Below are positions 2,918 to 54,430 of a stretch of DNA of 64,000 nucleotides, in pieces. Where the stretch lies: contig NZ_MDVX01000013.1 in assembly GCF_001719615.1 (NCBI RefSeq), forward strand, positions 62,001-126,000. The letters run 5' to 3'. How positions within the stretch are numbered: position 1 is the stretch's first letter; each line of letters begins with the position of its first letter. This stretch comes from Neptunicoccus sediminis (lineage in GTDB: Bacteria > Pseudomonadota > Alphaproteobacteria > Rhodobacterales > Rhodobacteraceae). The notes beneath the pieces were generated by a model. That model made no database searches. It was not told the DNA's origin and saw nothing but the letters and a program-made list of their open reading frames with translations. The position numbers were made by a program, and so were the translations under genes.

Positions 2918-3658
2918 CTAGATCGCCAGATATTCGTGGCGCAGTTGTTCGTTATCCAGAACCTCTTTGGCAGTGCCGTCAAACACCACCTGCCCCGTAT
3001 CAAGGATCACCGCCCGATCCGCGAGGTTCAGCGCGGCGACCGCGTTCTGTTCTACGATGATCGTCGTCATCCCCTGTTCGCGAATGTGGTGCAGGGTCTT
3101 CTCGATCTCTTGCACAATCACCGGCGCCAGCCCCTCGTAGGGTTCATCCAGTAGCAACAGTTTTATGTCCCGCGCCAGCGCGCGTCCGATAGCCAGCATC
3201 TGCTGCTCACCGCCCGACAGGGTTGTACCCTCTTGCTTGCGCCGCTCCCCGAGACGGGGGAACAGGTCATAGATGCGGTCGATCGACCAGCCAATCGGCT
3301 TTTCGATCTGGGCCAACTGGATATTTTCCTCCACCGTCAGCCCCTGAATAATCCGCCGGTCCTCGGGCACCAGACCGATACCCGCCTGCGCCGCCTGCCA
3401 TGCTTTCATCTGGTGCAGGGGTTGGCGGTCCAGCCAGACTTCGCCGTGGGTCAGCATCGGATCATCCAGACGTGCCAGCGCCCGCAGGGTAGAGGTTTTC
3501 CCCGCCCCGTTGCGCCCCAGCAGCGCGAGGATTTCGCCTTCGTGGATATTCAGCGACACGCCCTGCACGATATAACTCTCACCGTAATAGGCGTGAATAT
3601 CATAGGCCGAGAAATAGGCCGGCGCGGTGGCAGCGTGATTTGCGTTCTTTTCCATCAT
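2918..3658 (-). CDS. Liv-type ABC transporter ATPase (LivF family)
   Basis: About 246 residues, last gene of a five-gene importer operon. Contains Walker A LLGRNGAGKTS, signature LSGGEQQMLAIGRAL, Walker B LLLLDEPYEGLAP and the VEQN switch typical of LivF. The start at 3658 is preferred because AAGGGG lies eight bases upstream; a GTG at 3667 and an ATG at 3655 in the same frame are alternatives. The gap to the LivG stop is only 12 bases. Together with the upstream LivG it would power import of the ligand bound by the Tat-exported binding protein at 6768-8126. Confidence 0.9.
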   Translation of the reverse strand: MMEKNANHAATAPAYFSAYDIHAYYGESYIVQGVSLNIHEGEILALLGRNGAGKTSTLRALARLDDPMLTHGEVWLDRQPLHQMKAWQAAQAGIGLVPEDRRIIQGLTVEENIQLAQIEKPIGWSIDRIYDLFPRLGERRKQEGTTLSGGEQQMLAIGRALARDIKLLLLDEPYEGLAPVIVQEIEKTLHHIREQGMTTIIVEQNAVAALNLADRAVILDTGQVVFDGTAKEVLDNEQLRHEYLAI

Positions 3659-3670
3659 GTCATGCACCCC

Positions 3671-4426
3671 TTAATGCGCCGTACCAAGATAGGCTTCCTG
3701 AACTTTCGGATGGCCTTTGATGTTTTCGGGCAGGTCTTCGACGATCACCGTCCCCTGTGCGAGCACCGAAATCTTCTGCGCCAGCGAGAAGACCACATGC
3801 ATATCATGCTCGATAACAGCCATCGTAATATGTCGTTTGTCCTGTATCTGGGCCAGCAGTTCGATGGTGTTGTTGGTATCCGCCCGCGCCATCCCCGCTG
3901 TGGGTTCATCAAGCAGCAGCAGCTTGGGGTCTTGCGCCAGACACATGGCCATTTCCAACCGCCGTTTGTCACCGCGCGACATGGATGAGGCGATCATGTC
4001 CCGCTTGTCGATCATATTCACGTCGATCAGCATCTGTTCGGCCTTGTCACGAATATCGCTCTGCCCCTGCACCCGCGCCAGTGCATTCAATTCAAACGCA
4101 CCGTCCCGTTTGGCAAAACAGGGGATCATCACGTTCTCAAACACGCTGAGATCGGCAAATATCTCCGGTGTCTGGAACACACGGCTAACGCCGATCTGGT
4201 TTATTTCATGGGGTTTCTTCCCCAACAGCGAATGCCCGTCGAAGGTCACAGCGCCGGTATCAGGCAGCAGTTTTCCAACAAAGCAGTTCAGCAGCGTGGA
4301 TTTCCCCGCCCCGTTCGGGCCGATAATTGCGTGAATGGTGCCTTCTTCCACGTTCAGGTTGACGTTTTGCAACGCTTTCAACCCGCCAAAAGACTTGTTC
4401 ACATTCTGGACTTCAAGGATTCCCAT
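3671..4426 (-). CDS. Liv-type ABC transporter ATPase (LivG family) with variant signature
   Basis: 251 residues. Walker A IIGPNGAGKSTLLN near residues 34-47 and Walker B LLLLDEPTAGM are canonical; the ABC signature reads MSRGDKRRLEMA instead of LSGGQ. This SRGDKRRLE variant is seen in some LivG-like ATPases, and the other catalytic elements (H-loop in VIEHDMHVV) are intact, so I expect it to be functional. It is followed by LivF after 12 bases and preceded by LivM after 14 bases. The gene product acts at the cytoplasmic side of the membrane with LivF. Confidence 0.9.
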   Translation of the reverse strand: MGILEVQNVNKSFGGLKALQNVNLNVEEGTIHAIIGPNGAGKSTLLNCFVGKLLPDTGAVTFDGHSLLGKKPHEINQIGVSRVFQTPEIFADLSVFENVMIPCFAKRDGAFELNALARVQGQSDIRDKAEQMLIDVNMIDKRDMIASSMSRGDKRRLEMAMCLAQDPKLLLLDEPTAGMARADTNNTIELLAQIQDKRHITMAVIEHDMHVVFSLAQKISVLAQGTVIVEDLPENIKGHPKVQEAYLGTAH

Positions 4427-4440
4427 TAATCCACCCTTCC

Positions 4441-5628
4441 CTATTCACCGGCCGGGGCATATTTGCCCTCGGTGTCTTTTTTGTTCTTGTCGCCACTGAA
4501 CCGGTCGCGAATGCGGGTCGCCCCTTCCATCAGGCCACCGGGCAGGAAGATCACAATCAGCATGAACAAAAGGCCCAGTGTCAGGTGCCAGCCGGAGCCG
4601 ACGAAATGCTCTGCCACCCAGATCAGACCGTTCTCGATCCCGTCCGGCAGAAAACCGAACCACCCGTGCAACACGCTTTCGTTGATCTTGGAAAAGATGT
4701 TCTCAAAGTATTTGATGAAACCCGCGCCCAGCAGCGGCCCCAGCAAGGTGCCCGCACCGCCAAGGATGGTCATCAGAACCACCTCGCCCGAAGCGGTCCA
4801 CTGCATCCGCTCTGCCCCGGCCAGCGGGTCCATAGAGGCCATAAGACCACCCGCAAGCCCTGCATACATCCCCGAGATCACAAAAGCGGCGAGCGTATAG
4901 GGGCGCGAGTTGAGACCTGTATAGTTCAGCCGTGTCTGGTTGGTCTTGATCGCCCGCAGCATCAGCCCGAACGGAGAGCGGAAAATCCGCATGGACAGGT
5001 AGAACGCCACCAGCATCAGCACCGCGCAGAAATAGTAGCCGACGTTAAAGGAAAACGACCAAGCGCCAAGGTCCAGCTCAAAGGTCGAACGCATCTCCAG
5101 CCCGAAGAAATGGGTGGCATCCGGCCCGTCCCCCTTGAGCCATTGCGGATCGTCGTTATAGACCTGCAAACCGGTTTCCCCGTTTGTCAGCGGTGTCAGG
5201 ACCGAATAGGCCATCGCAAAGGACATCTGCGCAAAGGCCAGTGTCAGGATCGAAAAGTAGATCCCCGACCGACGTAGGGAGATAAATCCGATAATCACCG
5301 AAAACAGCCCCGCCACAATCACCGACAGGATGATCGCCGGCACGATGTTATAGCTAAGCAGTTTGAACATCCAAACCGCCGCATAAGACCCTGCCCCCAA
5401 AAAGGCCGCATGACCAAAGGACAGGTATCCGGTCAGGCCGAACAGGATGTTAAAACCGATGGCAAAGATTCCGAAGATCACAAACCGCTGCATCAGGTCG
5501 GGATACCCCGCATTGAACTGCGCCATCGCACTGTCTGCGGGAAACGGGTTCATGATGAACGGGGCGAGTGCCGTAACACAGATCACGAAGATGAATAGGC
5601 CGGTGTCTTTTTTGTTCAGTCCAAGCAT
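4441..5628 (-). CDS. Liv-type ABC transporter permease (LivM family)
   Basis: 395 residues, hydrophobic with about 9-10 predicted membrane segments. It carries the LivM landmarks [19 protein letters not shown] near the N-terminus and [18 protein letters not shown] in the C-terminal third. The charged tail ([18 protein letters not shown]) would be cytoplasmic. A 60-residue periplasmic insertion around [20 protein letters not shown] makes it longer than E. coli LivM-type proteins but is common in alphaproteobacterial relatives. It begins four bases after the LivH stop and pairs with LivH as the channel. Confidence 0.9.
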
Positions 5629-5632
5629 GGGA

Positions 5633-6679
5633 TTATTCCTCCATCACGCCTCTGCGTCCCATCAGACCGCGCGGTCGGGTCAACAGAACGATAATTGCAA
5701 CTAGGTAGATGATGATCTGGTCAATGGAGGGCAGGTAGATCGCCTCAAAGAAGCTTTTGACCTCGTTCATTGCGGCAAAGCTTTCAAGGATACCCAGAAG
5801 GAACCCTGCCAGCACCGCACCAGGCAGGCTGCCCATGCCACCAACCACAACAACCACAAAGCTCAGCACCAGAAAATCCATACCCATGTGATAGTTCGGG
5901 CTGTTGATCGGCGTATACATCACCCCGGCCAGACCGGCCACGGCTGCCGCAATTCCGAATGTCAGTGTAAAGCGGCGGTCGATGTTGATACCAAGCAGAC
6001 CGACAGTCTCGCGGTCGGCCATGCCAGCGCGCACCACCATGCCGAAGGTCGTGAATTGCAGGAAGGCAAAGACCCCGCCGATGACCAATGCGGAAAATGC
6101 AAAATAAACCAGACGCCACAGCGGATAGATCACCGCGTTTGGATCAAAACCAAGCAGCACGCCGAAATCGAAAGAGCCGCGCAGCGCATCGGGTGCCGGT
6201 GTCGGGATCGGGTTCGCACCATAATAGTGTTTTACGATCTCTTGAATCACAATCGCCAGACCGAATGTCACAAGGATCTGATCCGCGTGGGGACGCTTGT
6301 AGAAGTGTTTGATCAACCCGCGTTCCATGATGTAGCCAACCGCCAGCATCACCGGAATCGCAAACAGGATGGCCAGCGGGACGGACCAGTTGATAATCAA
6401 CTGTCCGGTGGCCTCTCCGAACCAGGATTCCACATAAGGGGTCTTTACCTCCATCGGGTTGCCCAGAAAATCCTTCTTTTCCGGATCAATACTGACGGAG
6501 CTGATCGTGAGAATTTTTTGCAAGGTGACGGCGCAGAAGGCACCGATCATGAACAGCGCACCGTGGGCGAAGTTCACCACGCCCAGTGTGCCGAAAATCA
6601 ACGTCAGGCCAAGGGCGATCAACGCATAGGCGGAGCCTTTGTCCAGTCCGTTCAGAATTTGCAGGAGGATTGCGTCCAT
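5633..6679 (-). CDS. Liv-type ABC transporter permease (LivH family)
   Basis: 348 residues with the LivH signature near the N-terminus: [20 protein letters not shown] then [18 protein letters not shown]-terminal [17 protein letters not shown] segment corresponds to the LivH EAA-like loop. An unusual hydrophilic stretch of about 40 residues ([17 protein letters not shown] and following) separates the first membrane segments and would face the periplasm. It follows the binding-protein gene across an 88-base gap that holds a strong hairpin, a common way to set the binding protein in excess over the membrane parts. Confidence 0.9.
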
Positions 6680-6719
6680 AGTCCCGCCCTTCTTTTATGT
6701 CGAGGGATGTATTGTAAAA

Positions 6720-6746
6720 GACCACGGCAAGCGGCTTGCCGTGGTC
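6720..6746 (-). terminator. Intercistronic hairpin between binding protein and permease genes
   Basis: GACCACGGCAAG / CTTGCCGTGGTC, a perfect 12-bp stem with a three-base loop, followed on the minus strand by TTTTA. It lies between the stop of the binding-protein gene and the start of LivH, so it probably acts as a partial terminator and/or mRNA 3' stabiliser rather than a full stop. Confidence 0.7.
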
Positions 6747-6767
6747 CTGTTTTGCGTCAGGCTACAC

Positions 6768-8126
6768 TTACGCGCCCGGATTGCATTGACCCAGATCGCC
6801 ACCGGCAAACATCGGGTGATCGGGGGCGTATTCCACCTGCGCACGCGGGGTGACTTCGACCACTTCCAGAAGGTCGAACTCCGATGTGGGGTTGTCTTTC
6901 CCTTTCACAACCAGAACATCCTTAAAGCACTGGTGATCATCGGCGCGATATTCGGTCGGGCCGTTGCCCATGCCGTCAAACTGCAAGCCCTCGAGCACTT
7001 CAGCGATCCCACAAGGATTGAACGTACCTGCGGTTTCTGCTGCGTTGGCATAAAGCAGGGTCTGCACGTAACATGTGTGCGCAGCCTGGCTTGGCGGGAA
7101 GCCGTATTTGGTGCCAAAGGATTTAACAAACGCTTTGGAGGCTTCGTCCTGCAAGGACCAGTGCCAGTTGGTAGAGCCGAAGATGCCTTTCACGTTTTCA
7201 CCCGCACCCCGGGCCATAAGACGGGAATACAGCGGCACAACGATTTCAAAGTTCTTGCCGTTCACCTGCTTGTCGCGCAGACCGAACTGCACAGCAGACG
7301 TCAGCGAGTTCACCATGTTGCCGCCGTAGTGGTTCAGAACCAGCACATCCGCGCCAGAGTTCAGAACAGGTGCCACATAGGAAGAGAAATCCGTCGTCGC
7401 CAGCGGTGTCAGAACGTTCTTGACGGTCTCCCAGCCTTTGGCTTCGGTTGCAGCAGCGATGGATTCCTGTTGCGTCCAACCCCAAGTGTAATCGGCTGTC
7501 AGGTGATATGCCTTACGGTCCTTGCCGTACATTTTCTCAAGCACAGGTGCCAGCGCAGCGGCGGACATATAGCCGTTGAAGAAGTGACGGAAACCGTTGG
7601 CTTTCTTGTCTTTGCCAGTCGTATCGTTGGAGTGGGTCAGACCGGCCATAAAGATCACGCCGGCTTCCTGACACAGCCCCTGAACCGCAACAGCCACGCC
7701 CGAGGACGAACCGCCGGTGATCATGATTGCGCCGTCTTTTTCGATCATGGACTTGGCAGACGCCCGCGCCGCATCGGATTTGGTCTGTGTATCGCCGGTG
7801 ACAAATTCCACCTTTTTACCCAGAATACCGTTGCCCTTCAGCGCAGCCTTGCTGCCGTTTGCCATGAAGGTATTCATCATGCCACCGTCGCCTTCACCGT
7901 TCAGGTGCTCGACCGCCAGCTCGTAGGCGCGCAATTCGTCCGCGCCTTCATCCGCGTAAGGACCGGACTGGGGCACGTTAAAGCCCAGCGTTACCGAACT
8001 GCCTTGCGGTGCGTTACGATACCCGGCATGGCTCTCGGCGGTCAGGATCGTCGGCATCGCAATACCGGCCCCGGCCAAAGCGCCGGCCTGAATGACACCA
8101 CGCCGTGTTGGTTTAATCAGAGTCAT
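6768..8126 (-). CDS. Liv-type substrate-binding protein, Tat-exported
   Basis: 452 residues. The N-terminus MTLIKPTRRGVIQAGALAG followed by a hydrophobic stretch (AGIAMPTILTAESHA) has twin arginines, so export of a folded protein through Tat is likely. The rest is the periplasmic-binding type I fold of amino acid/amide ABC receptors (VTLGFNVPQSGPYADEGADE; GSSSGVAVAVQGLCQEAGV). The start is fixed by GGGAGGAAATCT immediately upstream; a longer frame to 8204 has no support. It is the first gene of the operon with LivH, LivM, LivG and LivF. The ligand is not evident; urea, amide and amino acid receptors all share this fold. Confidence 0.88.
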   Translation of the reverse strand: MTLIKPTRRGVIQAGALAGAGIAMPTILTAESHAGYRNAPQGSSVTLGFNVPQSGPYADEGADELRAYELAVEHLNGEGDGGMMNTFMANGSKAALKGNGILGKKVEFVTGDTQTKSDAARASAKSMIEKDGAIMITGGSSSGVAVAVQGLCQEAGVIFMAGLTHSNDTTGKDKKANGFRHFFNGYMSAAALAPVLEKMYGKDRKAYHLTADYTWGWTQQESIAAATEAKGWETVKNVLTPLATTDFSSYVAPVLNSGADVLVLNHYGGNMVNSLTSAVQFGLRDKQVNGKNFEIVVPLYSRLMARGAGENVKGIFGSTNWHWSLQDEASKAFVKSFGTKYGFPPSQAAHTCYVQTLLYANAAETAGTFNPCGIAEVLEGLQFDGMGNGPTEYRADDHQCFKDVLVVKGKDNPTSEFDLLEVVEVTPRAQVEYAPDHPMFAGGDLGQCNPGA

Positions 8127-8361
8127 AGATTTCCTCCCAATGAACTCAATTTTTTGACCGACCCGTGCATCCTCCCATGGACACGCGCCCGGACACGAAG
8201 TCAAATAATTGACATTGGCATCTTCCTGCCGATCCGTTAAAAAAACAATAAACAGTTGCTTTGGCTTGATTTTTTTGTAAACTTTTTCTCAATGCAGCGC
8301 AGCAATCTGTAAATTAAATTACCAGACTTCCCGCAACGTAAAGCAAACAAAGGAAAAACAT
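8127..8361. promoter_or_regulatory. Divergent AT-rich promoter region
   Basis: 235 bases between the binding-protein gene (minus) and the ScfR-like regulator gene (plus), clearly more AT-rich than the flanking genes. It must carry promoters for both directions. TTGCTT and TAAACT hexamers separated by 16 bases near 8244-8271 are a weak candidate for the plus strand. The region also contains TGTAAAC and TGTAAATT words but no operator that I can name. Confidence 0.35.
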
Positions 8362-9618
8362 CTGCCCCGAACTCTCATTGGAACCCGCATTCGGGAACGG
8401 CGCCAGACCCGCAAGCTGACCCAGACGGCACTGGCCCGTGCTGTCGGAATTTCCGCAAGCTATCTCAACCTGATCGAACACAACCGGCGGGGAATCGCGG
8501 GACGCACCTTGTTGTCCATTGCACGAGAGCTGGATTTACAGCCCTCCGAATTGACCGAAGGCGCGGATGCCTCGCTGATTAATGCGCTGACAGAAACCGC
8601 CAAGTCCCACAGCACCGCACGGCCCGAAGTGGACCGGATCGAAGAATTTGTCGGGCGCTATCCCGGTTGGGCAAAACTGCTGGGTGAACTGTCCCGCATC
8701 ACCCGCGAACAGCGCGAGACGCTGACGGCGATGACCGACCAGATGGCCCATGATCCGTTCATCTCGGAGACCATGCACCAGATCCTGTCCAACATCACCG
8801 CGATCCGCTCCACCGCCAGCATTCTGGCCACGGCGGGCGATATTCCGGCGGATATGCAGGCGCGGTTTCTGGCCAACCTGCACAGCGACAGCCAACGCCT
8901 GTCCGAAACCGCGCAGAAGATGGTGGATTTCTTTGACCATGACAATGAAACCGACACCAGCGGTCCGGCCACCGCTGCCGCCCATGAATTCTGGGCCAGC
9001 CACGACCATGTGCCGCCCCCCGATGCGCAACCGGCCCTCAAAAGCGGCCCCCATGATGCGCCGGTTCTTCACAGCACGCTGGAACGGTATCAATCCATCC
9101 AAAGCGCCCTTCCCGCCGAGACCTTTGCAGGCACCGCTGCCAGCCACGGGTTCGATCCCCTCAGTCTTGCGCGGCATTACGACACCAGCGTCATGGCGAT
9201 TCTGTTTCGCATGGCACAGATGCCCGCTGATATGGGGTTTCCGGTCTTTGGTTTGATCGAAGTGGATATGTCCGGCGCGGTTCTGATGCGTAAACCTACC
9301 CCCGAACTGGCGCTGCCGCTGTATTCTTCGGCCTGTCCGCTCTGGCCGATCTACCGCGCCTTTGCCCAGCCGGGGCAGGTTTTGCGGGCCACGCTGGAAA
9401 TGCCTTCGGGCGACCGTGTCCTGACCTATGCGCTTTCCGAACCCACCGGCGCGGGCAGTTACGATCTGCCTGCCCTGCTGCGGTCCACGATGATATTCAG
9501 TGCCGACAACAGGGTCATGTCACAGGCTTTGGCAACGCCGGTACTGGCGGGGCTACACTGTAGCGTTTGCCCGCGAAAACACTGTGAGGCACGGCGGGTC
9601 GATTACATCCTTGCCTAA
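8362..9618 (+). CDS. ScfR-like XRE-family regulator with a histidine-kinase-like hairpin
   Basis: 418 residues if translation starts at the CTG at 8362. The frame from the preceding stop (8278-8280) contains no ATG, GTG or TTG before the helix-turn-helix; AAAGGAAAAACAT lies just upstream of the CTG, giving MPRTLIGTRIRERRQTRKLT as expected for the family. An ATG at 8509 would delete most of the DNA-binding domain. Residues about 8-62: XRE helix-turn-helix (LTQTALARAVGISASYLNLI). Residues about 120-205: a helical hairpin closely resembling a histidine-kinase DHp domain, with His139 in MHQILSNITAIRSTASIL. Residues about 300-418: DUF2083-type ligand region (ACPLWPIYRAF; terminal CSVCPRKHC cysteines) of short-chain acyl-CoA regulators. 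I see no HExxH of the M78 domain often found between. Followed by a lone receiver and a symporter-kinase, so an acyl/acetate-sensing role is inferred. Confidence 0.8.
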   Translation: MPRTLIGTRIRERRQTRKLTQTALARAVGISASYLNLIEHNRRGIAGRTLLSIARELDLQPSELTEGADASLINALTETAKSHSTARPEVDRIEEFVGRYPGWAKLLGELSRITREQRETLTAMTDQMAHDPFISETMHQILSNITAIRSTASILATAGDIPADMQARFLANLHSDSQRLSETAQKMVDFFDHDNETDTSGPATAAAHEFWASHDHVPPPDAQPALKSGPHDAPVLHSTLERYQSIQSALPAETFAGTAASHGFDPLSLARHYDTSVMAILFRMAQMPADMGFPVFGLIEVDMSGAVLMRKPTPELALPLYSSACPLWPIYRAFAQPGQVLRATLEMPSGDRVLTYALSEPTGAGSYDLPALLRSTMIFSADNRVMSQALATPVLAGLHCSVCPRKHCEARRVDYILA

Positions 9619-9689
9619 AACCGCAGGCTTGCCGTAGTTTCTCCAAGCTGGCGGCCGGGAGGCAGCCTGCAATCAGTTGGGAGGCTGGA

Positions 9690-10055
9690 ATGCACGAACG
9701 GGTGTTATTGATCGAGGACGAACCCCATATAGTAGAGGCGCTGAGCTTTCTTCTTACGCGGGAAGGTTTGTCTGTCAGCACCCATTCCGATGGCAGCAAT
9801 GCTGCGGAAACCGCCGCGCGGCTGACGCCGGATCTGGTGATCCTTGATGTCATGCTGCCGGGCAAAAGCGGCTTTGACATCCTGAGCGAAATTCGCGGCA
9901 CCGAGGGCATGGCCGAAACGCCGGTGCTGATGCTGACCGCCAAGGGGCAATCCCGCGACCGTGCGGCCGCACAGGCTGCGGGTGCGTCCATGTTTATGAC
10001 CAAACCTTTTTCCAACCGCGAAATTGTCGCCAATATCAAGGCTTTGCTGGCATGA
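9690..10055 (+). CDS. Single-domain response regulator (CheY-like)
   Basis: 121 residues forming only a receiver: acidic pair Asp10/Glu11, phospho-acceptor Asp53 in LVILDVMLPG, Thr83 and Lys105 in TKPF. No output domain follows. The ATG is preceded by GGGAGGCTGGA. It lies 71 bases after the ScfR-like gene and 9 bases before the small membrane protein, in the same direction as the symporter-histidine kinase, which is the obvious phosphodonor. How the phosphorylated receiver acts is open; binding to the DHp-like hairpin of the regulator upstream is one possibility (inference). Confidence 0.92.
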   Translation: MHERVLLIEDEPHIVEALSFLLTREGLSVSTHSDGSNAAETAARLTPDLVILDVMLPGKSGFDILSEIRGTEGMAETPVLMLTAKGQSRDRAAAQAAGASMFMTKPFSNREIVANIKALLA

Positions 10056-10064
10056 TCCCGACCG

Positions 10065-10313
10065 ATGCCTGACCGGACCAAACGCCCCACCCTGCCCAGC
10101 CGTCCGGGTCGGCGGTTCCGAGATGCAGCCACCTTGCTGCCCGTTACGGGATTGTTGCTGCTGCTAACGCCATTGATGTCGATCTTTACCCGCGCCCAAA
10201 GCCTGTTCGGTCTGCCGGTTTCCTTCTTTTACGTGTTCAGCGTCTGGGCCGGACTGATCCTGCTGGCGTTTTTTCTGGCCCGCCGTGCGCTGCGCATCAA
10301 CGTTTCAAAATGA
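10065..10313 (+). CDS. Small two-TM membrane protein, putative symporter partner
   Basis: 82 residues with a basic N-terminus (RTKRPTLPSRPGRRFRD) and two hydrophobic segments, roughly residues 24-42 and 52-74. The ATG of the symporter-kinase gene overlaps its stop (ATGA), so the two are translationally coupled. Small two-TM proteins encoded just before a sodium:solute symporter have precedents (YjcH with ActP, YhdT with PanF); I infer the same type of partnership but do not recognise a named family from the sequence alone. Confidence 0.7.
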   Translation: MPDRTKRPTLPSRPGRRFRDAATLLPVTGLLLLLTPLMSIFTRAQSLFGLPVSFFYVFSVWAGLILLAFFLARRALRINVSK

Positions 10314-13000
10314 TCAGCTTCAATATTCTTGTCTCCATCTGCCTGCTGTATGTGCTGGGGCTGTTTGCGGTGGCCTATGCCGCCGAACGCTGGGCGGAAA
10401 CGGGGCGGTTTGCGATCCTGCGCTCTCCGCTGGTCTATACGCTGTCGATTTCGGTCTATTGCACCGCATGGACGTTTTATGGCGCTGTCGGCTCGGCGGC
10501 GCGGAACGGGCTGGAGTTTGTGGCGATCTACCTTGGCCCCACCCTTGTTTTTGTCGGCTGGTGGTGGCTGCTGCATAAACTGGTGCGGATCGGGCGGGTG
10601 CAGCGCATTACCTCCATCGCGGATCTTCTGTCCTCGCGCTATGGTAAAAGCGGCGGTCTGGCGGTGCTGGTCACGGTGCTGGCGGTGGTGGGCACCACGC
10701 CCTATATCGCGCTGCAACTGCAATCCATGACGCTCAGCTTTGCGGTGTTTACCACGGCCACAGGTGCGCCTGCGCCGTCCCCGACTGTAACCGCCTTTTA
10801 TGTAGCGGCGGGACTGGCGGTGTTCACTATCATTTTTGGCACCCGAAATCTGGATGCGAACGAGCGTCACCACGGCGTTGTCACAGCCATCGCGGTTGAG
10901 GCGGTGGTAAAGCTGGCCGCCCTGCTGTCGGTGGGGATTTTTGTTGTCTGGGGCGTGGCGAGCGGACCGGCAGATATATTCGCGCGGATGGACCCCGAGC
11001 TGCTGCAAAGCAGTCAGGTGTTCAATACCCGCTGGGTCATGCTCAACTTTCTGTCGGCCTGTGCCATCATCTGTCTGCCCCGCATGTTTCAGGTGATCGT
11101 GGTGGAGAACTCCAACGAACGACATCTGGCCACGGCAAGCTGGGCTTTCCCGCTCTACCTGTTTTTGATGAGCCTGTTCGTCTTGCCCATCGCCATAGCC
11201 GGACAGTCCATTCTGGCACCCGACGCCAATCCCGACCTTTTCGTTCTGACGGTGCCGCTGGATCAGGGCCAGCAAACGCTGGCTACTCTGGCGTTTCTGG
11301 GCGGGTTTTCCTCGGCCACTTCGATGGTCATCGTTGCCTCGATCGCGCTGTCTACGATGATGTCAAACCACATCGTCCTGCCGCTCTGGCTGCGTATGAA
11401 TGCCAGTCGCAACCCTGCAAGCGACGATGTGCGCGATCTATTGCTGCGCTCCCGCAGGGCAAGCATCGCGGTGGTTGTGGCCCTTGGCTATGTGTATTTC
11501 CAGTTTAACGGCGGCACGGGGGCGCTGGCCTCTATCGGCTTGATCGCCTTTCTTGGCGTCGCGCAGGTGCTGCCCGCGCTCTTGGGCGGATTGTTCTGGC
11601 ACAGCGCCACCCGCCCTGCCGCCATCGCCAGCATCTGCACCGGCTTTTTCATCTGGGCCTACACCCTGTTTGTCCCAAGCTTTAGTGGCGCGGCGCTGAT
11701 GGGGCCGGAAGCACTGGCATCCGGTCCGTTTGGCATTTCGTGGCTGGCACCGCAAAACCTGCTCGGGGTCGGCATCACCGACCCGCTGGTCCATGCGGTG
11801 TTTTGGTCCTTGGGGCTGAACACGGTGGTGTTCGTCGTCGTATCCCTGCTGACAACGCCCAGCGCCATCGAACGCCTGCAATCGGTCCAGTTCATCAATG
11901 TTTTCGGTCAGGTCTCCCCCCGTCGCGGCATCACCCGCAGCACCGCAATCGAAGACCTGCTGGTTCTGGCACAGCGCATTCTGGGGCGCGAAGAGGCAAT
12001 GGCCCTGTTCCGCGCACAGGCCCGGCATCAGGGCAAGGATTCCCCTCTGCCGGACGCCACAAACGAACTGATCGCCACATTAGAGCGCGAGATCGCCGGT
12101 TCGGTGGGGGCTGCCGCCGCCCATGCGATGATGGCACAGGTGACAGGCGGTTCGGAGATTTCCTTTGAAGACATGATCGCCGTGGCCGATGAAACGGCCC
12201 AGATTATGGAGTATTCCGCACGGCTTGAAACCCAGTCAAAAGAGCTGGAACAGGCCGCCGCACAACTACGTGATGCCAATGCGAAACTGACAGAGCTCGG
12301 GGCGCAGAAGGATACGTTTCTCAGTCAGGTCAGCCACGAGTTGCGCACGCCGATGACCTCTATCCGCACATTTTCGGAAATCCTGCAGGACGGCGACACG
12401 CTTGCGCCGGAACAGCTGAACCATTTTGCTACGATCATTCACAGCGAAAGCATCCGGTTGACGCGGCTGCTCGACGATATTCTGGATCTCAGCTTTATGG
12501 AAAACGGGCGGGTGCAGTTGAACCTTGAAACCGTGCCGGTCCAAAGCATCATCGACCGCGCCCTTGCCACCACGCAAGCACAAGCCAACGAGTTAGGCGC
12601 TGTGATCCGGCGCGACACCACCGCCGAACAGATCACGCTTTATACCGATGCGGACAGGCTGTCCCAAGTGCTGATCAATCTCGTGACAAACGCGCTGAAA
12701 CATTGCGGCACCACCCCGCCCGAGGTCAGCGTTCTCAGCGGACTGCATGATGGCAAGCTGCTTATAACGGTGGCAGATAACGGCAGGGGTATCAGCGAGG
12801 ATGACATCGACCTGATCTTTGAGAAATTCTCTAAACTGTCAAAGAAATTCACCTCCGGCAGTGCCGGACTGGGCCTGCCGATCAGCCGCGAAATTGTGAA
12901 AAACCTTGGCGGAACGCTGGTTTATGCGGGCAGCAGCATGGGGGCGGTGTTTCGGATCACCCTGCCGCTGCGTACCACTGAAACGCCTGAAAGCGCCTGA
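10310..13000 (+). CDS. Sodium:solute symporter fused to a histidine kinase (CbrA/CrbS type)
   Basis: 896 residues. Residues about 1-520 form a 12-13 segment SSS transporter-like domain (AWTFYGAVGSAARNGLEF; TSIADLLSSRYGKSGGL; GGFSSATSMVIVASIALSTM). A coiled linker (ETQSKELEQAAAQLRDANAK) leads into the DHp domain with phospho-acceptor His676 in SHELRTPMTS, then an HATPase domain with N-box LVTNALKH and G-boxes DNGRGI and GSAGLGLPIS. No receiver or recognisable PAS domain is attached. In CbrA/CrbS-type kinases the symporter part senses or carries a small carboxylate or amino acid and controls carbon use, acetate in the case of CrbS. The likely partner is the lone receiver encoded upstream. Confidence 0.9.
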   Translation: MISFNILVSICLLYVLGLFAVAYAAERWAETGRFAILRSPLVYTLSISVYCTAWTFYGAVGSAARNGLEFVAIYLGPTLVFVGWWWLLHKLVRIGRVQRITSIADLLSSRYGKSGGLAVLVTVLAVVGTTPYIALQLQSMTLSFAVFTTATGAPAPSPTVTAFYVAAGLAVFTIIFGTRNLDANERHHGVVTAIAVEAVVKLAALLSVGIFVVWGVASGPADIFARMDPELLQSSQVFNTRWVMLNFLSACAIICLPRMFQVIVVENSNERHLATASWAFPLYLFLMSLFVLPIAIAGQSILAPDANPDLFVLTVPLDQGQQTLATLAFLGGFSSATSMVIVASIALSTMMSNHIVLPLWLRMNASRNPASDDVRDLLLRSRRASIAVVVALGYVYFQFNGGTGALASIGLIAFLGVAQVLPALLGGLFWHSATRPAAIASICTGFFIWAYTLFVPSFSGAALMGPEALASGPFGISWLAPQNLLGVGITDPLVHAVFWSLGLNTVVFVVVSLLTTPSAIERLQSVQFINVFGQVSPRRGITRSTAIEDLLVLAQRILGREEAMALFRAQARHQGKDSPLPDATNELIATLEREIAGSVGAAAAHAMMAQVTGGSEISFEDMIAVADETAQIMEYSARLETQSKELEQAAAQLRDANAKLTELGAQKDTFLSQVSHELRTPMTSIRTFSEILQDGDTLAPEQLNHFATIIHSESIRLTRLLDDILDLSFMENGRVQLNLETVPVQSIIDRALATTQAQANELGAVIRRDTTAEQITLYTDADRLSQVLINLVTNALKHCGTTPPEVSVLSGLHDGKLLITVADNGRGISEDDIDLIFEKFSKLSKKFTSGSAGLGLPISREIVKNLGGTLVYAGSSMGAVFRITLPLRTTETPESA

Positions 13001-14025: not shown

Positions 14026-14453
14026 GATGACTCTGTCGAATAAGTTTGTCCCGCGCTATATGCGCATGGTTTAAGTCGAAATTGTGGCAAATACCGCCAT
14101 AATTCGATGCAAAACGAGTCGGAAAAGGCGAATCGCACCATGCTTTTACGTTTTGCAATACCCTTATGCCCTTGGCTTTCCGCATTATTGTGCACGATTT
14201 AGGAACAAAGAACCGCCTTCCGGTCCAATGTCGCCAAAAAAGGCAAAAAATATCGAAATATGGCAAAATTTGTTCAAAATTGGGCAAAATTGGACGGTTT
14301 TCCTTGAATTTTGATCCCAGTGCTGTGTAACTACGAATGAGAATTTGCGTCACTTTGAGAGTCCATCGGTTCGGAATCGCTGCCGCAAATAGTTTAGTTT
14401 CAGTTTTCGCCGGGTTTGATCCGGTCGAACCAGCATGATGAGTGGAGTTTGTA
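14026..14453. promoter_or_regulatory. AT-rich regulatory region before the RTX gene, with phased A/T tracts
   Basis: 428 bases without a gene. From about 14234 to 14313 short A or T runs recur at nearly helical spacing (starts near 14236, 14245, 14256, 14265, 14276, 14286, 14298, 14307), including three copies of CAAAATT. Such phasing predicts intrinsically curved DNA. The region must hold the RTX promoter and the promoter of the divergent kinase gene; I cannot assign exact -35/-10 boxes. The ribosome site TGGAG lies just before the ATG at 14454. Confidence 0.5.
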
Positions 14454-17400
14454 ATGAGTGATGTAACGGGCGCAACCAGAGACGACACAGCATATTCGGC
14501 TGCTGGCACGGGCGGCACTGGAACTGGTGGAACCGGAACTGGTGGAACCGGAACTGGCGGAACAGGAACAGGTGGAACCGGAACTGGCGGCACTGGTACA
14601 GGTGGAACCGGAACTGGTGGCACTGGTACAGGCGGCACAGGAACAGGTGGAACCGGAACTGGTGGCACTGGTACAGGCGGCACAGGAACCGGTGGCACTG
14701 GAACTGGTGGAACCGGTACAGGTGGCACTGGCACAGGCGGCACTGGAACTGGTGGAACCGGAACTGGTGGCACTGGTACAGGCGGCACTGGAACTGGTGG
14801 AACCGGAACTGGCGGCACTGGTACAGGCGGAACAGGAACTGGTGGCACTGGTACAGGCGGCACTGGTACTGGCGGAACAGGAACAGGTGGCACTGGCACA
14901 GGCGGAACAGGAACTGGCGGAACCGGAACTGGCGGCACTGGCACAGGTACAGGTGGTACAGGCACTGGCGGTACTGGCACAGGCGCTGGCACTGGCGGTA
15001 CTGGCACGGGTGGAACGAAAACGGCGGCTCCGGTTGATGGCACCAGCGGTGATGACATCATGCTGCCCGGCTATGTTGACGAACAATGCGACACAATTGA
15101 CGGTGCGGATGGGGACAACGATGTAATCTACGCCTACGCAGGCGACGATTTCGTTGATGCCGGCAAAGGTGACGACACTGTTTTTGGCGGTCACGGCAAT
15201 GACATTCTGGCGGGTGGCACCGGAACCAACCTGCTCTACGGTGGCAAGGGCGACGATGTTTTTGTTGGCGGCTCCGGCAAGGATATTTTCGACGGCGGCC
15301 AGGGTCAGGACAACCTCGATTATTCCAGCAGCGGTTCGGCGGTTACGGTCGATCTGTCTACGAAATCCCTCTCTGGCGGTGACGCAGATAACGATTGCAT
15401 CATCGGCGGTATCGACGGTGCGATCGGCTCTGACTTTGACGACACGCTGATCGGCTTTGACCATGAGGGCAATTCTGCCGCGGATACTTTCACCAACGAG
15501 TTCTTTGGCGGCAAGGGTGACGACTACATCGAAGGCAAAGGCGGCGACGACCGTCTGTTTGGCGGCGATGACAACGACGAAATCCTCGGCGGCAGCGGTG
15601 CGGACATCATTGATGGCGGCGCAGGCAAGGACGAGATTTACGGCGGCGCGGATGCGGACCGCATCAACGTGATGAGCGCGGCTGACGGCATTGGTGACAT
15701 CGTGGACGGTGGCACTGACGGCGACGACAATGACGTTCTGGACCTGACAAATGCAGGCCCGTTCCGTGTCACAAACGAAACGGTTGATGCGGACGGAAAT
15801 TCCACCTCCGGCACGATCGAATTCCTTGACCCATCGGATATGTCGGTTCTCGGCACGATGGAATTCTCGGAAATCGAGACCATTCTGGGTGATCGGATGA
15901 CACCGGATGGCACAGTCCACGGCACAGCCGGTGACGATGTGATGAACCCGGGGTATGTGGATGCGCAGGGCGATACCATTGACGGCGCAGATGGCGACGA
16001 CGACATCATCGAAGCCGGTGACGGTGACGACGAAGTGCGCGCGGGCGAAGGCGACGATCTGGTCTATGCCGGTGCAGGCGACGACAGTGTTGACGGCGGC
16101 AACGGCGACGACACGCTTCACGGCGAAGACGGCGACGACATCCTGCGCGGCCGCGCTGGTAACGACACTCTCTTTGGTGGCGACGGCGACGACCAACTGT
16201 TTGGCGGCGGCGACGGCGACACGCTGTACGGTGGTGACGGTTCTGACACGGCAACCGGCAGTGCGGGCGATGACTACATCGACACGTCCGGTCCGGTTGA
16301 CGTTGCAAACGACATCGGCACACCGGATCGCGGTTATCCCGGACTCTATGATAGTGACGCCGATCCCACCAACGACATGGACACCGTCTATGGCGGTGGC
16401 GGTAACGACATCATCTACACCGGCGACGATGCGGACAGCATTTCGGGCGGCGATGGCGATGACTCCATCTACTCCGGCATTGACGATGACACTGTAGATG
16501 GCGGCAGAGGCGACGATCTGATCGTCGGCGGCGAAGGCAATGACATCATCGAAGCCGGCGCAGGCGACGATGTGGTCTACGGCGGTCTGGAAACAACCGA
16601 CATCCTTGATATTCCGGATGACATCGACCGGCGTCCCGACAACGGCATGGACACGATCTATGGCGGAGATGGCAATGACATCCTCTACGGTCGCGACGAT
16701 GACGACCTGATTTACGGCGGCGCAGATGACGACGAAATCTACGGCGGTATCGACGACGACATCATGCACGGTGACAGAGGCAACGACATCTTTGGCGGTG
16801 GCCACGGTAACGACACAGCATATGGCGGCGCGGATCGGGACACCTTCACCTATGACTCTGCCGAGGATGCGATTGGCGACCACGTAGACGGTGGCAGCGG
16901 CGGCGATGATTACGACACGCTCGACCTGTCGAACGTGGGTCACTACAAGATCATCAACGAAACTGTTGATCCGGATGGCGACTCCACCTCGGGGACCGTC
17001 CAGTTCATCGACCGTCCGGGCGGCTCTGTCACCGGTGAGATGACCTTCACCGAGATCGAGAATATTCTCGACACGACACCTCCGCCCTGCTTCACACCGG
17101 GCACGCTGATTGCAACCATGCAAGGCGAAAAGCCGGTTGAGATGCTTAAGGTCGGGGATCGGGTGATCACGCGGGACAACGGCGCACAGGAAATCCGCTG
17201 GATCGGTGCCAAGCCGATGACTGGGATGGAACTGCAAGCCAACCCACACCTGCAACCGGTTCTGATCCGCAAAGGCGCGCTTGGAAACGGTCTGCCGGAA
17301 CGGGACATGCTGGTCAGCCAGAACCACCGCCTGCTGGTAAACAACGCCGAAGTCGGCCTGCTGTTCAACGAACCGGAAGTACTGGTCGCCGCCAAGCATA

Positions 17401-17669
17401 TGGTGAATGACGACAAGAGCATTTCGCTGGTCAGTGCATCGCAAGCCACTTATGTGCACTTCATGTTCGACCACCACGAGGTCGTTCTGTCCGATGGCGC
17501 ATGGACCGAAAGCTTCCAGCCGGGTGATCAGGCTATGGCCAGCGTAACCGCAGAGCAACGCGACGAGATCACGGAACTTTTCCCTGAACTCGCCTGCGCA
17601 CAGGGCCGCGAAGCCTATACCTCTTCGCGCCTGTCGCTAAAGGCTTTTGAAGCCAAGATGTTCAAATAA
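14454..17669 (+). CDS. RTX repeat protein with GTGGT tandem repeats and C-terminal Hint domain
   Basis: 1071 residues. After 17 residues without an obvious signal peptide comes a block of about 34 GTGGT pentapeptides (residues 18-187). Residues about 195-870 are RTX/hemolysin-type calcium-binding nonapeptides (GGxGxDxx: GGKGDDVFVGG, GGAGKDEIYGG), arranged around two longer repeats that begin with GDDxMxPGYVDxQ and end in a beta-rich TxSGTxxFxD segment. Cys879 in PCFTPGTLIAT opens a Hint domain with the later SQNHRLLV and DHHEVVLSDG blocks, as in many roseobacter RTX proteins. ATG 14454 is chosen over GTG 14442 because TGGAGTTTGTA fits it. Expected to be exported by a type I system, which is not encoded here. 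Possible roles are adhesin or surface layer; Hint autoprocessing is possible but unproven. Confidence 0.88.
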   Translation: MSDVTGATRDDTAYSAAGTGGTGTGGTGTGGTGTGGTGTGGTGTGGTGTGGTGTGGTGTGGTGTGGTGTGGTGTGGTGTGGTGTGGTGTGGTGTGGTGTGGTGTGGTGTGGTGTGGTGTGGTGTGGTGTGGTGTGGTGTGGTGTGGTGTGGTGTGGTGTGGTGTGTGGTGTGGTGTGAGTGGTGTGGTKTAAPVDGTSGDDIMLPGYVDEQCDTIDGADGDNDVIYAYAGDDFVDAGKGDDTVFGGHGNDILAGGTGTNLLYGGKGDDVFVGGSGKDIFDGGQGQDNLDYSSSGSAVTVDLSTKSLSGGDADNDCIIGGIDGAIGSDFDDTLIGFDHEGNSAADTFTNEFFGGKGDDYIEGKGGDDRLFGGDDNDEILGGSGADIIDGGAGKDEIYGGADADRINVMSAADGIGDIVDGGTDGDDNDVLDLTNAGPFRVTNETVDADGNSTSGTIEFLDPSDMSVLGTMEFSEIETILGDRMTPDGTVHGTAGDDVMNPGYVDAQGDTIDGADGDDDIIEAGDGDDEVRAGEGDDLVYAGAGDDSVDGGNGDDTLHGEDGDDILRGRAGNDTLFGGDGDDQLFGGGDGDTLYGGDGSDTATGSAGDDYIDTSGPVDVANDIGTPDRGYPGLYDSDADPTNDMDTVYGGGGNDIIYTGDDADSISGGDGDDSIYSGIDDDTVDGGRGDDLIVGGEGNDIIEAGAGDDVVYGGLETTDILDIPDDIDRRPDNGMDTIYGGDGNDILYGRDDDDLIYGGADDDEIYGGIDDDIMHGDRGNDIFGGGHGNDTAYGGADRDTFTYDSAEDAIGDHVDGGSGGDDYDTLDLSNVGHYKIINETVDPDGDSTSGTVQFIDRPGGSVTGEMTFTEIENILDTTPPPCFTPGTLIATMQGEKPVEMLKVGDRVITRDNGAQEIRWIGAKPMTGMELQANPHLQPVLIRKGALGNGLPERDMLVSQNHRLLVNNAEVGLLFNEPEVLVAAKHMVNDDKSISLVSASQATYVHFMFDHHEVVLSDGAWTESFQPGDQAMASVTAEQRDEITELFPELACAQGREAYTSSRLSLKAFEAKMFK
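14505..15015 (+). repeat. 15-bp tandem repeat array encoding GTGGT units
   Basis: About 34 in-frame copies of a 15-base unit built from Gly (GGT/GGC/GGA) and Thr (ACT/ACA/ACC) codons. Third positions vary between neighbouring copies while larger blocks recur, which points to past unequal recombination or slippage under selection for the peptide. Near 14942 and 14987 the register is interrupted (GTGTG, GAGTG). Confidence 0.9.
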
Positions 17670-52498: not shown

Positions 52499-54430
52499 AT
52501 GACGGATCAAACCACCACACAGATGATGCGCTCGGGGCTGAACCTGATCGGACAGGCCCTGACAATCTACGACGCGGATCTGAAACTCGCGGTGTCAAAC
52601 CGCCGCTTTCAAGAGATGTTCGGCCTGCCCGACCATCTGGTAGAAACCGGCGCCCGCTTTCGCGAAACCATCGAATATCTCGCCTCCCGCGGGGAATATG
52701 GTCAGGTGGATAACGTGGCCGAATTTGTCCAGTTGCGGGTGGATCAGGCGCGGGATTTTGAACCCCATTATATGGAGCGCCAGCGGGCCAACGGGGACTG
52801 GATTTCGGTAGAGGGCAGTCCCTTGCGTACCGGCGGCTGGGTGACGGTCTATACCGATATTACCCAGATCAAGCGACAAGAGGCGATGTTGCGCTCTGAG
52901 GGCGAGAAGCTTTCGGCGGATCTGATCACGCGCTCCGAGGAACTGACCGAAACCAACCGCAGGCTGGCCGCAACCAACAGCGCACTGGAAGAGGCCAAGC
53001 GCGACCTGATGGACGCCGAGGCCCGCGCCCGCGTCACAGCGGAAATGACCCCCGCCCATATCGCCCACGTGGATCGCAACAAGATTTACACCTATTCCAA
53101 CCGCAAATTGTTCGAAGTGATCGGCGCCTCCCCCCGTGACATTATTGGGCTTAGCACCAAAGAAGCGTTGGGACCGGATGCCCACCGCCTGATCGACCCG
53201 ATGTTTGACAAAGCCCTGAGCGGCGAAGCCAATGTCAGTGAATTCGATCTTTTTGAAGGCACCCGCCGCGTGCGCGCTGCCTTTACCCCCGACATTGATC
53301 CAGACGGCCATATCGTTGGCGCTTATGTGCTGTCTATGGACATCACCGCCGAGGCACAGGCCCGTGCCGCGCTGCAACAAACCCGCAAACGGGAACTGGC
53401 CGCGCAACTGACCAGCGGGCTGGCCCATGATTTCGCCAATCTGCTGACCGTGATCCTCGGGCTTCAGGGACAGTTGGAACGTATGGGGAATTTGCCCCCC
53501 GCAGCCGCCGAAGCCATTGCCACCACCAAGGCGGCAGCCTTGCGGGGCGGGGCATTGCTGGACAAGCTTTCGGATGTGTCGGGCCGTCGTGCGCTGTCTG
53601 TTTCGGCTGTGCGGCTTGATGCGCTGTTTGACGATCTGTTCGCGCTTGCCAAGGCTGCGCTGCCGGAAACTATCACGCTAAGTTTGCAAAATGAGGGCAT
53701 CGACCGCCCTGTCATGCTGGATCGGGGGTTTATGCAGGACGGGTTGCTGAACCTTGTCCTGAATGCACGGGATGCAATTCTGGGCAGCGGTCGGAACAGC
53801 GGCGCGATCTCTATCGCCGCCCGGTTGCGCGGCACCACATGGATCGAATTTCAGGTCCGTGATACCGGACCCGGCTTTTCCGACGAAGGGTTAAACAATG
53901 CGCTCGATCCGTTCTTTACCTCCAAAGCCTCTGAAGGTTCCGGCCTGGGGCTGACAATGGTCTATGATTTCGCCCAGCTTTCCGGCGGGCGCGTGCGGAT
54001 CAGCAACCGCAGCCGCGGCGGTGCTGAAGTGACCGTGCAACTGCCGCTGCGCTTTGGTTCGCTGACCTCGGGTCTTGGCATGGTGCTACTGGTGGAAGAC
54101 AAGGAAGACTTGCGCATCCAGACCCGCGAAATGCTGCGCTCTATGGGGCATGTGGTGCTGGAAACCGACAATGCCGAAGAGGCCCTGTCGCTGTCTCAGG
54201 TGCAGGGCATCAGTCACGTTCTCTCGGACATCATGCTCGGAGCGGGGATGACAGGGCTCGACATGGCGCGGGCGCTGCTGGATACAGGGGTTAATGTTCC
54301 GGTTATCATGATGACGGGCCTTCCCGCCGACGATCCCGTCCGCCAACAGGCCGAAGCCCAGTTTCCGCTGGTCAACAAACCTTTTACTGCGGCGCAACTG
54401 GCCGAAAAATTTGACGAGGTTCAGGCATGA
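52499..54430 (+). CDS. PAS-containing hybrid histidine kinase
   Basis: 643 residues, no membrane segments, so cytosolic. Two PAS-like domains (about 12-125, with AVSNRRFQEMFGLPD; and about 180-285, with HVDRNKIYTYSNRKLFEVIG) joined by a coiled coil (SEELTETNRRLAATNSALEEAKRD). DHp with His310 in GLAHDFANLLTVILG, HATPase with NLVLNARDAI, DTGPGFSDEG and GSGLGLTMVY, and a C-terminal receiver (about 525-643; VLLVEDKEDL, LSDIML, NKPF). The family uses the HxFxNLL H-box of HWE/PDK-like kinases. Coupled to the following regulator by ATGA, and divergent from the transporter/ligase locus, whose substrate it may sense. Confidence 0.9.
   Translation: MTDQTTTQMMRSGLNLIGQALTIYDADLKLAVSNRRFQEMFGLPDHLVETGARFRETIEYLASRGEYGQVDNVAEFVQLRVDQARDFEPHYMERQRANGDWISVEGSPLRTGGWVTVYTDITQIKRQEAMLRSEGEKLSADLITRSEELTETNRRLAATNSALEEAKRDLMDAEARARVTAEMTPAHIAHVDRNKIYTYSNRKLFEVIGASPRDIIGLSTKEALGPDAHRLIDPMFDKALSGEANVSEFDLFEGTRRVRAAFTPDIDPDGHIVGAYVLSMDITAEAQARAALQQTRKRELAAQLTSGLAHDFANLLTVILGLQGQLERMGNLPPAAAEAIATTKAAALRGGALLDKLSDVSGRRALSVSAVRLDALFDDLFALAKAALPETITLSLQNEGIDRPVMLDRGFMQDGLLNLVLNARDAILGSGRNSGAISIAARLRGTTWIEFQVRDTGPGFSDEGLNNALDPFFTSKASEGSGLGLTMVYDFAQLSGGRVRISNRSRGGAEVTVQLPLRFGSLTSGLGMVLLVEDKEDLRIQTREMLRSMGHVVLETDNAEEALSLSQVQGISHVLSDIMLGAGMTGLDMARALLDTGVNVPVIMMTGLPADDPVRQQAEAQFPLVNKPFTAAQLAEKFDEVQA

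Follow-up and report, generated by a model that had tools for sequence, protein, structure and literature searches.

The gene cassette

The subject of this analysis is a cassette of four genes in a 64,000-nucleotide stretch of DNA from Neptunicoccus sediminis (Rhodobacteraceae; contig NZ_MDVX01000013.1, positions 62,001 to 126,000), the whole of which is referred to below as the window. The cassette encodes a transcriptional regulator, a lone receiver, a small protein with two transmembrane (TM) segments and a transporter fused to a histidine kinase. The regulator consists of an XRE-type helix-turn-helix (HTH), a dimerisation and histidine phosphotransfer (DHp) hairpin of the HisKA type and a C-terminus of the ScfR type, and it has no ATPase domain. 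The genes and the parts of the regulator are as follows (window coordinates; E, expectation value; evidence in brackets).

8362–9618, plus strand: DHp-bearing ScfR-type regulator (Pfam HTH_3, HisKA, the latter weak, and ScfRs; CTG start inferred)
8389–8553, plus strand: XRE-type HTH of the regulator, residues 9–63 (PF01381, HTH_3, E 7e-11)
8740–8940, plus strand: captured DHp hairpin of the regulator, residues 126–192 (profile, tree and fold comparisons)
8776–8778, plus strand: codon of the conserved phospho-acceptor His138 (conservation across aligned rows)
9217–9600, plus strand: ScfRs C-terminal domain with Cys324 and Cys399-X2-Cys402-X4-Cys407 (PF09856, residues 285–412, E 1.5e-16)
9690–10055, plus strand: lone receiver (PF00072, E 3e-27; Asp53 at 9846–9848)
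10065–10313, plus strand: small two-TM protein (CbrX-like by position and by overlap with the kinase gene)
10310–13000, plus strand: SLC5/STAC-type transporter-kinase, or symporter-kinase (structure match to CbrA, Pfam HisKA and HATPase_c; His676 at 12335–12337)

The codon at 8362 is CTG and not ATG, GTG or TTG; it is preceded by a purine-rich stretch, and CTG also stands at the start of the regulator gene of another locus (L157; L and G numbers denote loci and genomes of this analysis), whose product is 90% identical to that of the window. The number His138 omits the first residue of the regulator; counted with it, the residue is His139. The small two-TM gene overlaps the start of the kinase gene by 4 bases (10310–10313). 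In the symporter-kinase Pfam recognises HisKA at residues 666–733 (E 2e-17) and HATPase_c at 780–888 (E 9e-25), with the N, G1 and G2 boxes intact, and its SSF model has no match at E ≤ 10. Residues 7–607 match chain 10ed_A (CbrA) of the Protein Data Bank (PDB) with E 1.6e-73; entry 10ED is described as the CbrXA SLC5-STAC structure (PMC13022988). The fusion of an SLC5-STAC part to HisKA and HATPase_c, by which an SLC5/STAC transporter-kinase is recognised, is present in this protein. The receiver has D10, D53 and K105 in 200/200 aligned rows.

A HisKA-type DHp in the regulator

Residues 132–194 of the regulator match HisKA (PF00512) with E 0.0046 and 17.4 bits, below the Pfam cut-off of 26.9, and no HATPase_c was found in the protein by Pfam at E ≤ 10. 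The profile–profile comparison of the hairpin with the DHp of the kinase gave a probability of 97.6 and E 3.2e-12 over 60 gap-free columns, in which His138 pairs with His676. Searched with the profile of the regulator DHp, the 30 HisKA kinases of the same genome gave E 5.4e-8 for the kinase of the operon and 0.073 for the next one, and the best decoy (each of the 30 kinases was also searched reversed and shuffled) reached 13; the likeness between the hairpin and the kinase of its own operon is therefore beyond chance. In the AlphaFold model of the regulator (mean predicted local distance difference test score, pLDDT, 87.4) the region forms two helices, 131–155 and 162–199, and when the hairpin was folded alone (pLDDT 78) the nine best PDB matches found by Foldseek were all histidine-kinase DHps, HK853–RR468 complexes included.

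An earlier note on this DNA, made from the letters alone, had described much of this architecture, and the description was borne out. The XRE helix-turn-helix and the DUF2083-like end that it reported correspond to HTH_3 and ScfRs (PF09856); the resemblance of the middle of the regulator to a DHp, and the gap-free alignment of His139 with His676, agree with the HisKA match, the decoy-controlled search and the 60 columns of the profile comparison. The search against HisKA that it proposed gives a weak match in the protein of the window and one above the curated cut-off in 4/10 relatives from outside the family. The receiver lacking an output domain and the two-TM gene coupled to the symporter were likewise found, as the PF00072 domain and the 4-base overlap.

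Some results weigh against the assignment of the hairpin to kinase DHps. The Foldseek matches have probabilities of 0.90–0.99 and E values of 0.13–0.65, none of them ≤ 0.001; HisKA as a single model reaches E 0.01 in just 7/111 regulators of the family; and a profile search of the PDB with the DHp alignment returned no kinase among its matches. Foldseek with the whole regulator model put PrpR first, followed mostly by XRE domains, with no kinase in the best 50 rows; to bring up the kinase DHps, the model of the hairpin alone was required.

Three other identities of the hairpin or the protein were rejected: a chance coiled coil, a degenerate full kinase, of which no ATPase remnant was found, and a PRD regulator, since the Pfam scan gave no PRD match in the regulator. 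A second sub-threshold HisKA match on the contig of the window, of 21.0 bits, lies at 53402–53581 in a frame of 660 residues.

Capture of the hairpin from the partner kinase

The hairpin has its origin in the DHp of the SLC5 transporter-kinase of the same operon. The profile of the hairpin was run against 241 alphaproteobacterial genomes, and in 29 genomes outside the family of the window a match with E 1.7e-10 or better was found in a frame of 484–599 residues, the size of a regulator. In each of these 29, a frame of kinase size (894–1041 residues) is matched as well, usually about 4 kb away. Among 199 genomes from the phylum but outside the class, 15 have one profile match each, in frames of 920–981 residues, and none has a match of regulator size. 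A relative was also searched for in viral contigs, where none was found.

The regulators from outside the family retain the canonical linker helix of ScfR behind the DHp (16 were read). Ten of them were scanned with Pfam, and M78 was recognised in 9, ScfRs in 10 and, in the same chain, HisKA above the cut-off in 4 (33.7, 38.7, 31.9 and 33.0 bits), the other six being below the cut-off or without a match. That 4/10 pass the HisKA cut-off indicates an ScfR of the ordinary kind into which a DHp has been inserted.

A tree of 84 DHps was built from 68 columns; its inner forks are unsure and some of its outgroup branches are long. The DHps of regulators and symporter-kinases separate in it from those of 27 other kinases of the genome of the window (97/98), and all 30 DHps of regulators fall into a single clade (100/99) nested within the symporter-kinase DHps. 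It is this nesting that identifies the partner kinase as the source of the captured DHp. Intermediates of the capture are still legible in living genomes: the regulator of locus L302 reads HELRTFLTSIRSFSEIL and the kinase of the same locus HELRTPLTSVRSFGEIL, the regulator retaining HELRT.

The same data bear on the proposal that the hairpin is a normal linker helix of ScfR that resembles a DHp by chance or convergence. The full-length alignment with a canonical paralogue (L002) does span the hairpin stretch, and the HisKA scores of most family regulators are weak, as this proposal would predict. Outside the family, however, the DHp precedes a canonical linker helix, in proteins of which 9/10 also have M78, and the decoys, the tree and the fold search all point to kinases, so that the proposal is regarded as extremely improbable. 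A remodelled ScfR linker helix was likewise rejected.

Conservation of the four-gene unit

The kinase, the receiver, the CbrX-like protein and the regulator are one conserved unit in Alphaproteobacteria. Within the family 200 loci were compared, 120 chosen by the kinase and 80 by the regulator, some sharing a genome and some redundant. All four genes are present in 178, always on the same strand and in the order regulator, receiver, TM protein, kinase; some of the remaining loci are cut by contig ends. The regulator was found in 111/120 of the kinase-chosen loci, the kinase in 76/80 of the regulator-chosen ones, and the receiver in 199/200. Outside the family the four genes occur together in 17/20 loci. 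Departures from the usual arrangement are L300 and L304, where the regulator gene runs convergently to the rest of the unit, and G457, in which the receiver is not beside the regulator or kinase and its nearest relative sits on another contig.

At the level of genomes, the transporter part of the transporter-kinase was found in 355/394 genomes of the family. Among the 39 without a kinase match a regulator with E < 1e-40 was found only in G325, which is 70% complete, and of the 355 with the kinase about 332 have such a regulator, the threshold leaving 23 unsettled; this co-occurrence was compared by eye from two lists and is uncorrected for kinship. Locus L158 runs counter to the association: a regulator 54% identical to that of the window (5998–7221), with a DHp that retains its His, lies beside an ABC (ATP-binding cassette) transporter, and no receiver or transporter-kinase was found in the 13.2 kb of this locus.

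A putative operator and the acs gene

Upstream of the cassette lie a divergent transporter operon and, between it and the regulator, a pair of repeated boxes.

2918–8204, minus strand: divergent ABC transporter operon with two ATPases, two permeases and a binding protein of the twin-arginine translocation (TAT) type (Pfam for the binding protein and one permease; ATPases by sequence)
8276–8313, plus strand: putative operator, two direct TGTAAA boxes 32 bp apart (boxes 8276–8281 and 8308–8313; spacing conservation)

TGTAAA boxes exactly 32 bp apart are present in 110/152 intergenic regions between the regulator and the ABC genes, against 0.005 per 152 in shuffled sequences, and outside the family a pair with up to 2 mismatches and a spacing of 31 or 32 bp precedes the regulator in 17/20 loci. 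RamB of Paracoccus is described as binding two similar boxes with an 18-bp spacer, an arrangement called common for ScfRs (PMC10370305). The gene of the ABC binding protein is divergent from the regulator in 151/151 loci that have both, and the ABC operon is a probable target of the regulator. The transporter is of the urea or branched-chain amino-acid type, and it precedes acs in about half of the named loci. In 32/61 of these (flank at least 5.9 kb) acs, divergent from the regulator, lies behind the ABC genes about 5.5 kb away from it.

In the genome of the window a two-box site with 2 mismatches stands before acs (acetate–CoA ligase, TIGR02188, 1019 bits). A search of the same genome with up to 3 mismatches, in which the site of the window is exact, gave 27 sites as compared to 24 in the reversed control, and on these numbers the acs site of this genome alone is not significant. 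The claim on acs is carried by comparative tests instead. The first set comprised 30 acs loci: a pair with up to 1 mismatch was found in 10/12 of those without ABC genes in front of acs (8 exact) and a pair with up to 2 mismatches in 0/18 of those with such genes. The exceptions are L346, from a genome (G061) without the kinase and without a clear regulator, and L336, from G011, where acs has neither ABC genes nor a site although regulator and kinase are present; the latter case counts against control of acs by the regulator.

For a second set, new acs upstream regions were fetched before scanning from 20 regulator-bearing genomes in which the listed acs and the regulator are on different contigs or separated by more than 15 kb. 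At spacings of 31 or 32 bp the pair is exact in 12 and has up to 2 mismatches in 20/20; at 32 bp only, 8 are exact and 16/20 have up to 2 mismatches. In 10 genomes without the kinase and a clear regulator the pair was found before acs in 0/10 (Fisher p = 3e-5 for 16/20 vs 0/10). Random windows gave 32/400 with up to 2 mismatches; the genuine operators of these loci are counted in this number, which is therefore not a clean background.

A natural loss is seen in G377 (L136, G377:C11), where kinase and receiver are kept beside acs and the DHp-bearing regulator is absent; an apparent decayed end of an ABC ATPase stands between them, before acs, and the closest approach to the two-box pattern there has 4 mismatches. 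Regulator and site are thus lost together, although the genome still has a canonical ScfR paralogue. Neither was a site with up to 2 mismatches found in G221, G023 and G367, which are without a clear regulator. The operator therefore follows the DHp-bearing regulator and not ScfRs generally. On the best reading of these comparisons, the regulator would control acetate activation through acs.

Two side observations may be added. A copy of the pair with 1 mismatch and extra TTTACA/TGTAAA repeats lies near position 2790 of L307 (G000:C31:446289-446329), before a gene for a PotD-like binding protein. Downstream of the cassette in the window, at 14442–17669, a frame of 1075 residues has first a long Gly-Thr-Gly-Gly repeat and then acidic Gly/Asp-rich repeats of the RTX type.

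Iron–sulphur cysteines and acyl-CoA sensing

For the C-terminal part of the regulator the PDB match is PrpR (E 2.4e-8), and HTH_3 and ScfRs were both recognised in 111/111 regulators of the family. Cys324, Cys399, Cys402 and Cys407 are each present in 190–192 of the 192 aligned rows. A C-X2-C-X4-C motif with a fourth Cys is described for the ScfR/IsaR regulators, the counterparts in PrpR being Cys363 and C447-X2-C450-X4-C455 (PMC6765138). A complete ScfR also has an M78, or IrrE-like, domain, and against its full equivalence with the window regulator stands the result that Pfam found no such domain there at E ≤ 10; M78 reaches E ≤ 0.01 in 2/111 family rows, and nine of the ten scanned relatives from outside the family have it. 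The window protein is thus a derived relative of ScfR and not a complete one. Acyl-coenzyme A (acyl-CoA) sensing by it is uncertain because the DIII half of the PrpR-type CoA pocket is undetectable; the M78-bearing relatives would be better candidates.

The functional proposals of the earlier note thus found partial support. The four genes, whose synteny was to be checked, do stay together (178/200 loci in the family and 17/20 outside), and the acetate link has gained independent support from the two-box putative operator before acs. The case for acyl-CoA sensing is weaker than the note had it: the iron–sulphur cysteines are kept, but in the protein of the window the IrrE-like half of the CoA pocket is not recognisable.

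Proposed mechanism and alternatives

It is considered likely that the cassette is a two-component system ending on an ScfR transcription factor whose DHp was captured from its own sensor kinase. The transporter-kinase would sense acetate or a related carbon substrate, acetate being suggested by the acs link and the parallel with CrbS/R, and would phosphorylate the lone receiver at Asp53. The receiver would then dock on the DHp of the regulator through the contact face inherited from the kinase and most likely hand its phosphoryl group to His138. This transfer may alter the oligomeric state or the DNA binding of the regulator, with the [4Fe-4S] part perhaps tuning it further, and the regulator would thereby set the transcription of the ABC transporter/acs operon and of its own gene.

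The surface with which the DHp of a kinase binds a receiver lies below the His. Nor does a DHp need a working ATPase part to exchange phosphate with receivers, Spo0B and ChpT being examples. Taken over from the kinase of the same operon, a DHp would have brought along the docking face for the receiver, and docking is the likelier since the source of the hairpin is the DHp of the kinase presumed to act on this receiver; both the docking and the phosphotransfer are inferred. Mean-field direct coupling analysis of the regulator DHp and the receiver (176 loci, effective number 55) carries no weight for or against this scheme, as even the kinase–receiver control lacked the expected contacts.

The residues around the His bear on the last step. 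The His is kept in 191/192 regulators of the family and in 20/20 from outside it, and in the latter 20/20 also have Ser, Thr or Asn four residues past it. Glu or Asp directly follows the His in 169/192 family rows and is lost in 23, among them the regulator of the window, which has Gln; outside the family the acid is present in just 3/20 and missing in 17/20. This loss of the acid speaks against phosphotransfer and is what would be expected if the DHp were a dimerisation element and docking pad to which the phosphorylated receiver binds allosterically, with no phosphate passing to the His. A mere pad, on the other hand, needs no His, and the conservation of this residue and of the Ser, Thr or Asn makes such a pad unlikely.

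The homology of the two DHps also allows for a direct route, in which the regulator DHp pairs with that of the kinase, or is phosphorylated directly by the kinase ATPase domain, with the receiver on a side branch, e.g., as a phosphate sink. Locus L296, with no receiver gene beside the regulator and kinase, would fit this scheme, but a receiver relative with 49% identity is encoded elsewhere in that genome, and at L306 regulator and receiver stay side by side and the kinase lies on another contig. Since the receiver is present in 199/200 family loci, and 76 of the 80 regulator-chosen loci include the kinase, the direct route seems less probable still than the docking pad.

Transfer from receiver to regulator can be put in a more specific and more tentative form, to which somewhat less than an even chance is given: a relay with a reversed last step, from the kinase His to the receiver Asp and on to the DHp His inside a DNA-binding protein. 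The receiver would shuttle between two homologous DHps, one the source and the other the output, the input having been gained by DHp capture, and one protein would read both the outside, through the transporter-kinase, and the inside, through its [4Fe-4S]/acyl-CoA state, to set acetate activation in Alphaproteobacteria.

If true, the scheme would give a one-component regulator a new route into a phosphorelay, via a captured kinase DHp, and would supply the output that was missing for a lone receiver and for a transporter-kinase whose transporter part occurs in 355/394 genomes of the family. Alphaproteobacteria would gain a counterpart of the CrbS/R acetate switch, and signals from nutrients outside and from metabolism inside may converge on one DNA-binding protein.

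Relation to known systems

No publication describing this architecture was found in the literature on ScfR, on DHp or HisKA in transcription factors, on DHp-like phosphotransferases, on His-phosphorylated regulators and on acs in connection with ScfR, symporter and receiver, as judged by titles and the start of abstracts, a body of texts to which most subscription papers do not belong.

Two-component systems normally terminate at a response regulator that bears the Asp. In the window the output would instead be a DHp-bearing ScfR with a separate receiver, unlike CbrB and CrbR, which are response regulators with a DNA-binding domain of their own. The kinase side resembles the SLC5/STAC kinases CbrA and CrbS in its transporter-kinase (the 10ed match) and in the small coupled gene in front of it. 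CrbS/R is described as controlling acs (PMC5715377, PMC5436829), and for cbrX, a small gene, translational coupling to cbrA is described (PMC6591292); the gene at 10065–10313, compared by position and 4-base overlap only, is likely to be the cbrX counterpart.

On the regulator side, the XRE HTH, the ScfRs domain, the four iron–sulphur cysteines and the two-box operator are shared with ScfR/IsaR regulators such as PrpR, RamB and PccR, PrpR being the best PDB match. The window regulator differs from them in carrying a DHp, in its undetectable M78/IrrE-like part and in its operon with a transporter-kinase and a receiver. Pden_1785 of Paracoccus denitrificans Pd1222 is, going by its description only, a probable orthologue. 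Like Spo0B and ChpT, it has a DHp that would exchange phosphate with a receiver without kinase activity, the exchange being putative in its case; unlike them, with their ATPase-like domain and no DNA-binding part, it holds the DHp within a transcription factor, in which an ATPase-like domain was not found. With the PRD regulators it would share control of a transcription factor through His phosphorylation, which is again putative here, by means of another fold and another phosphate donor.

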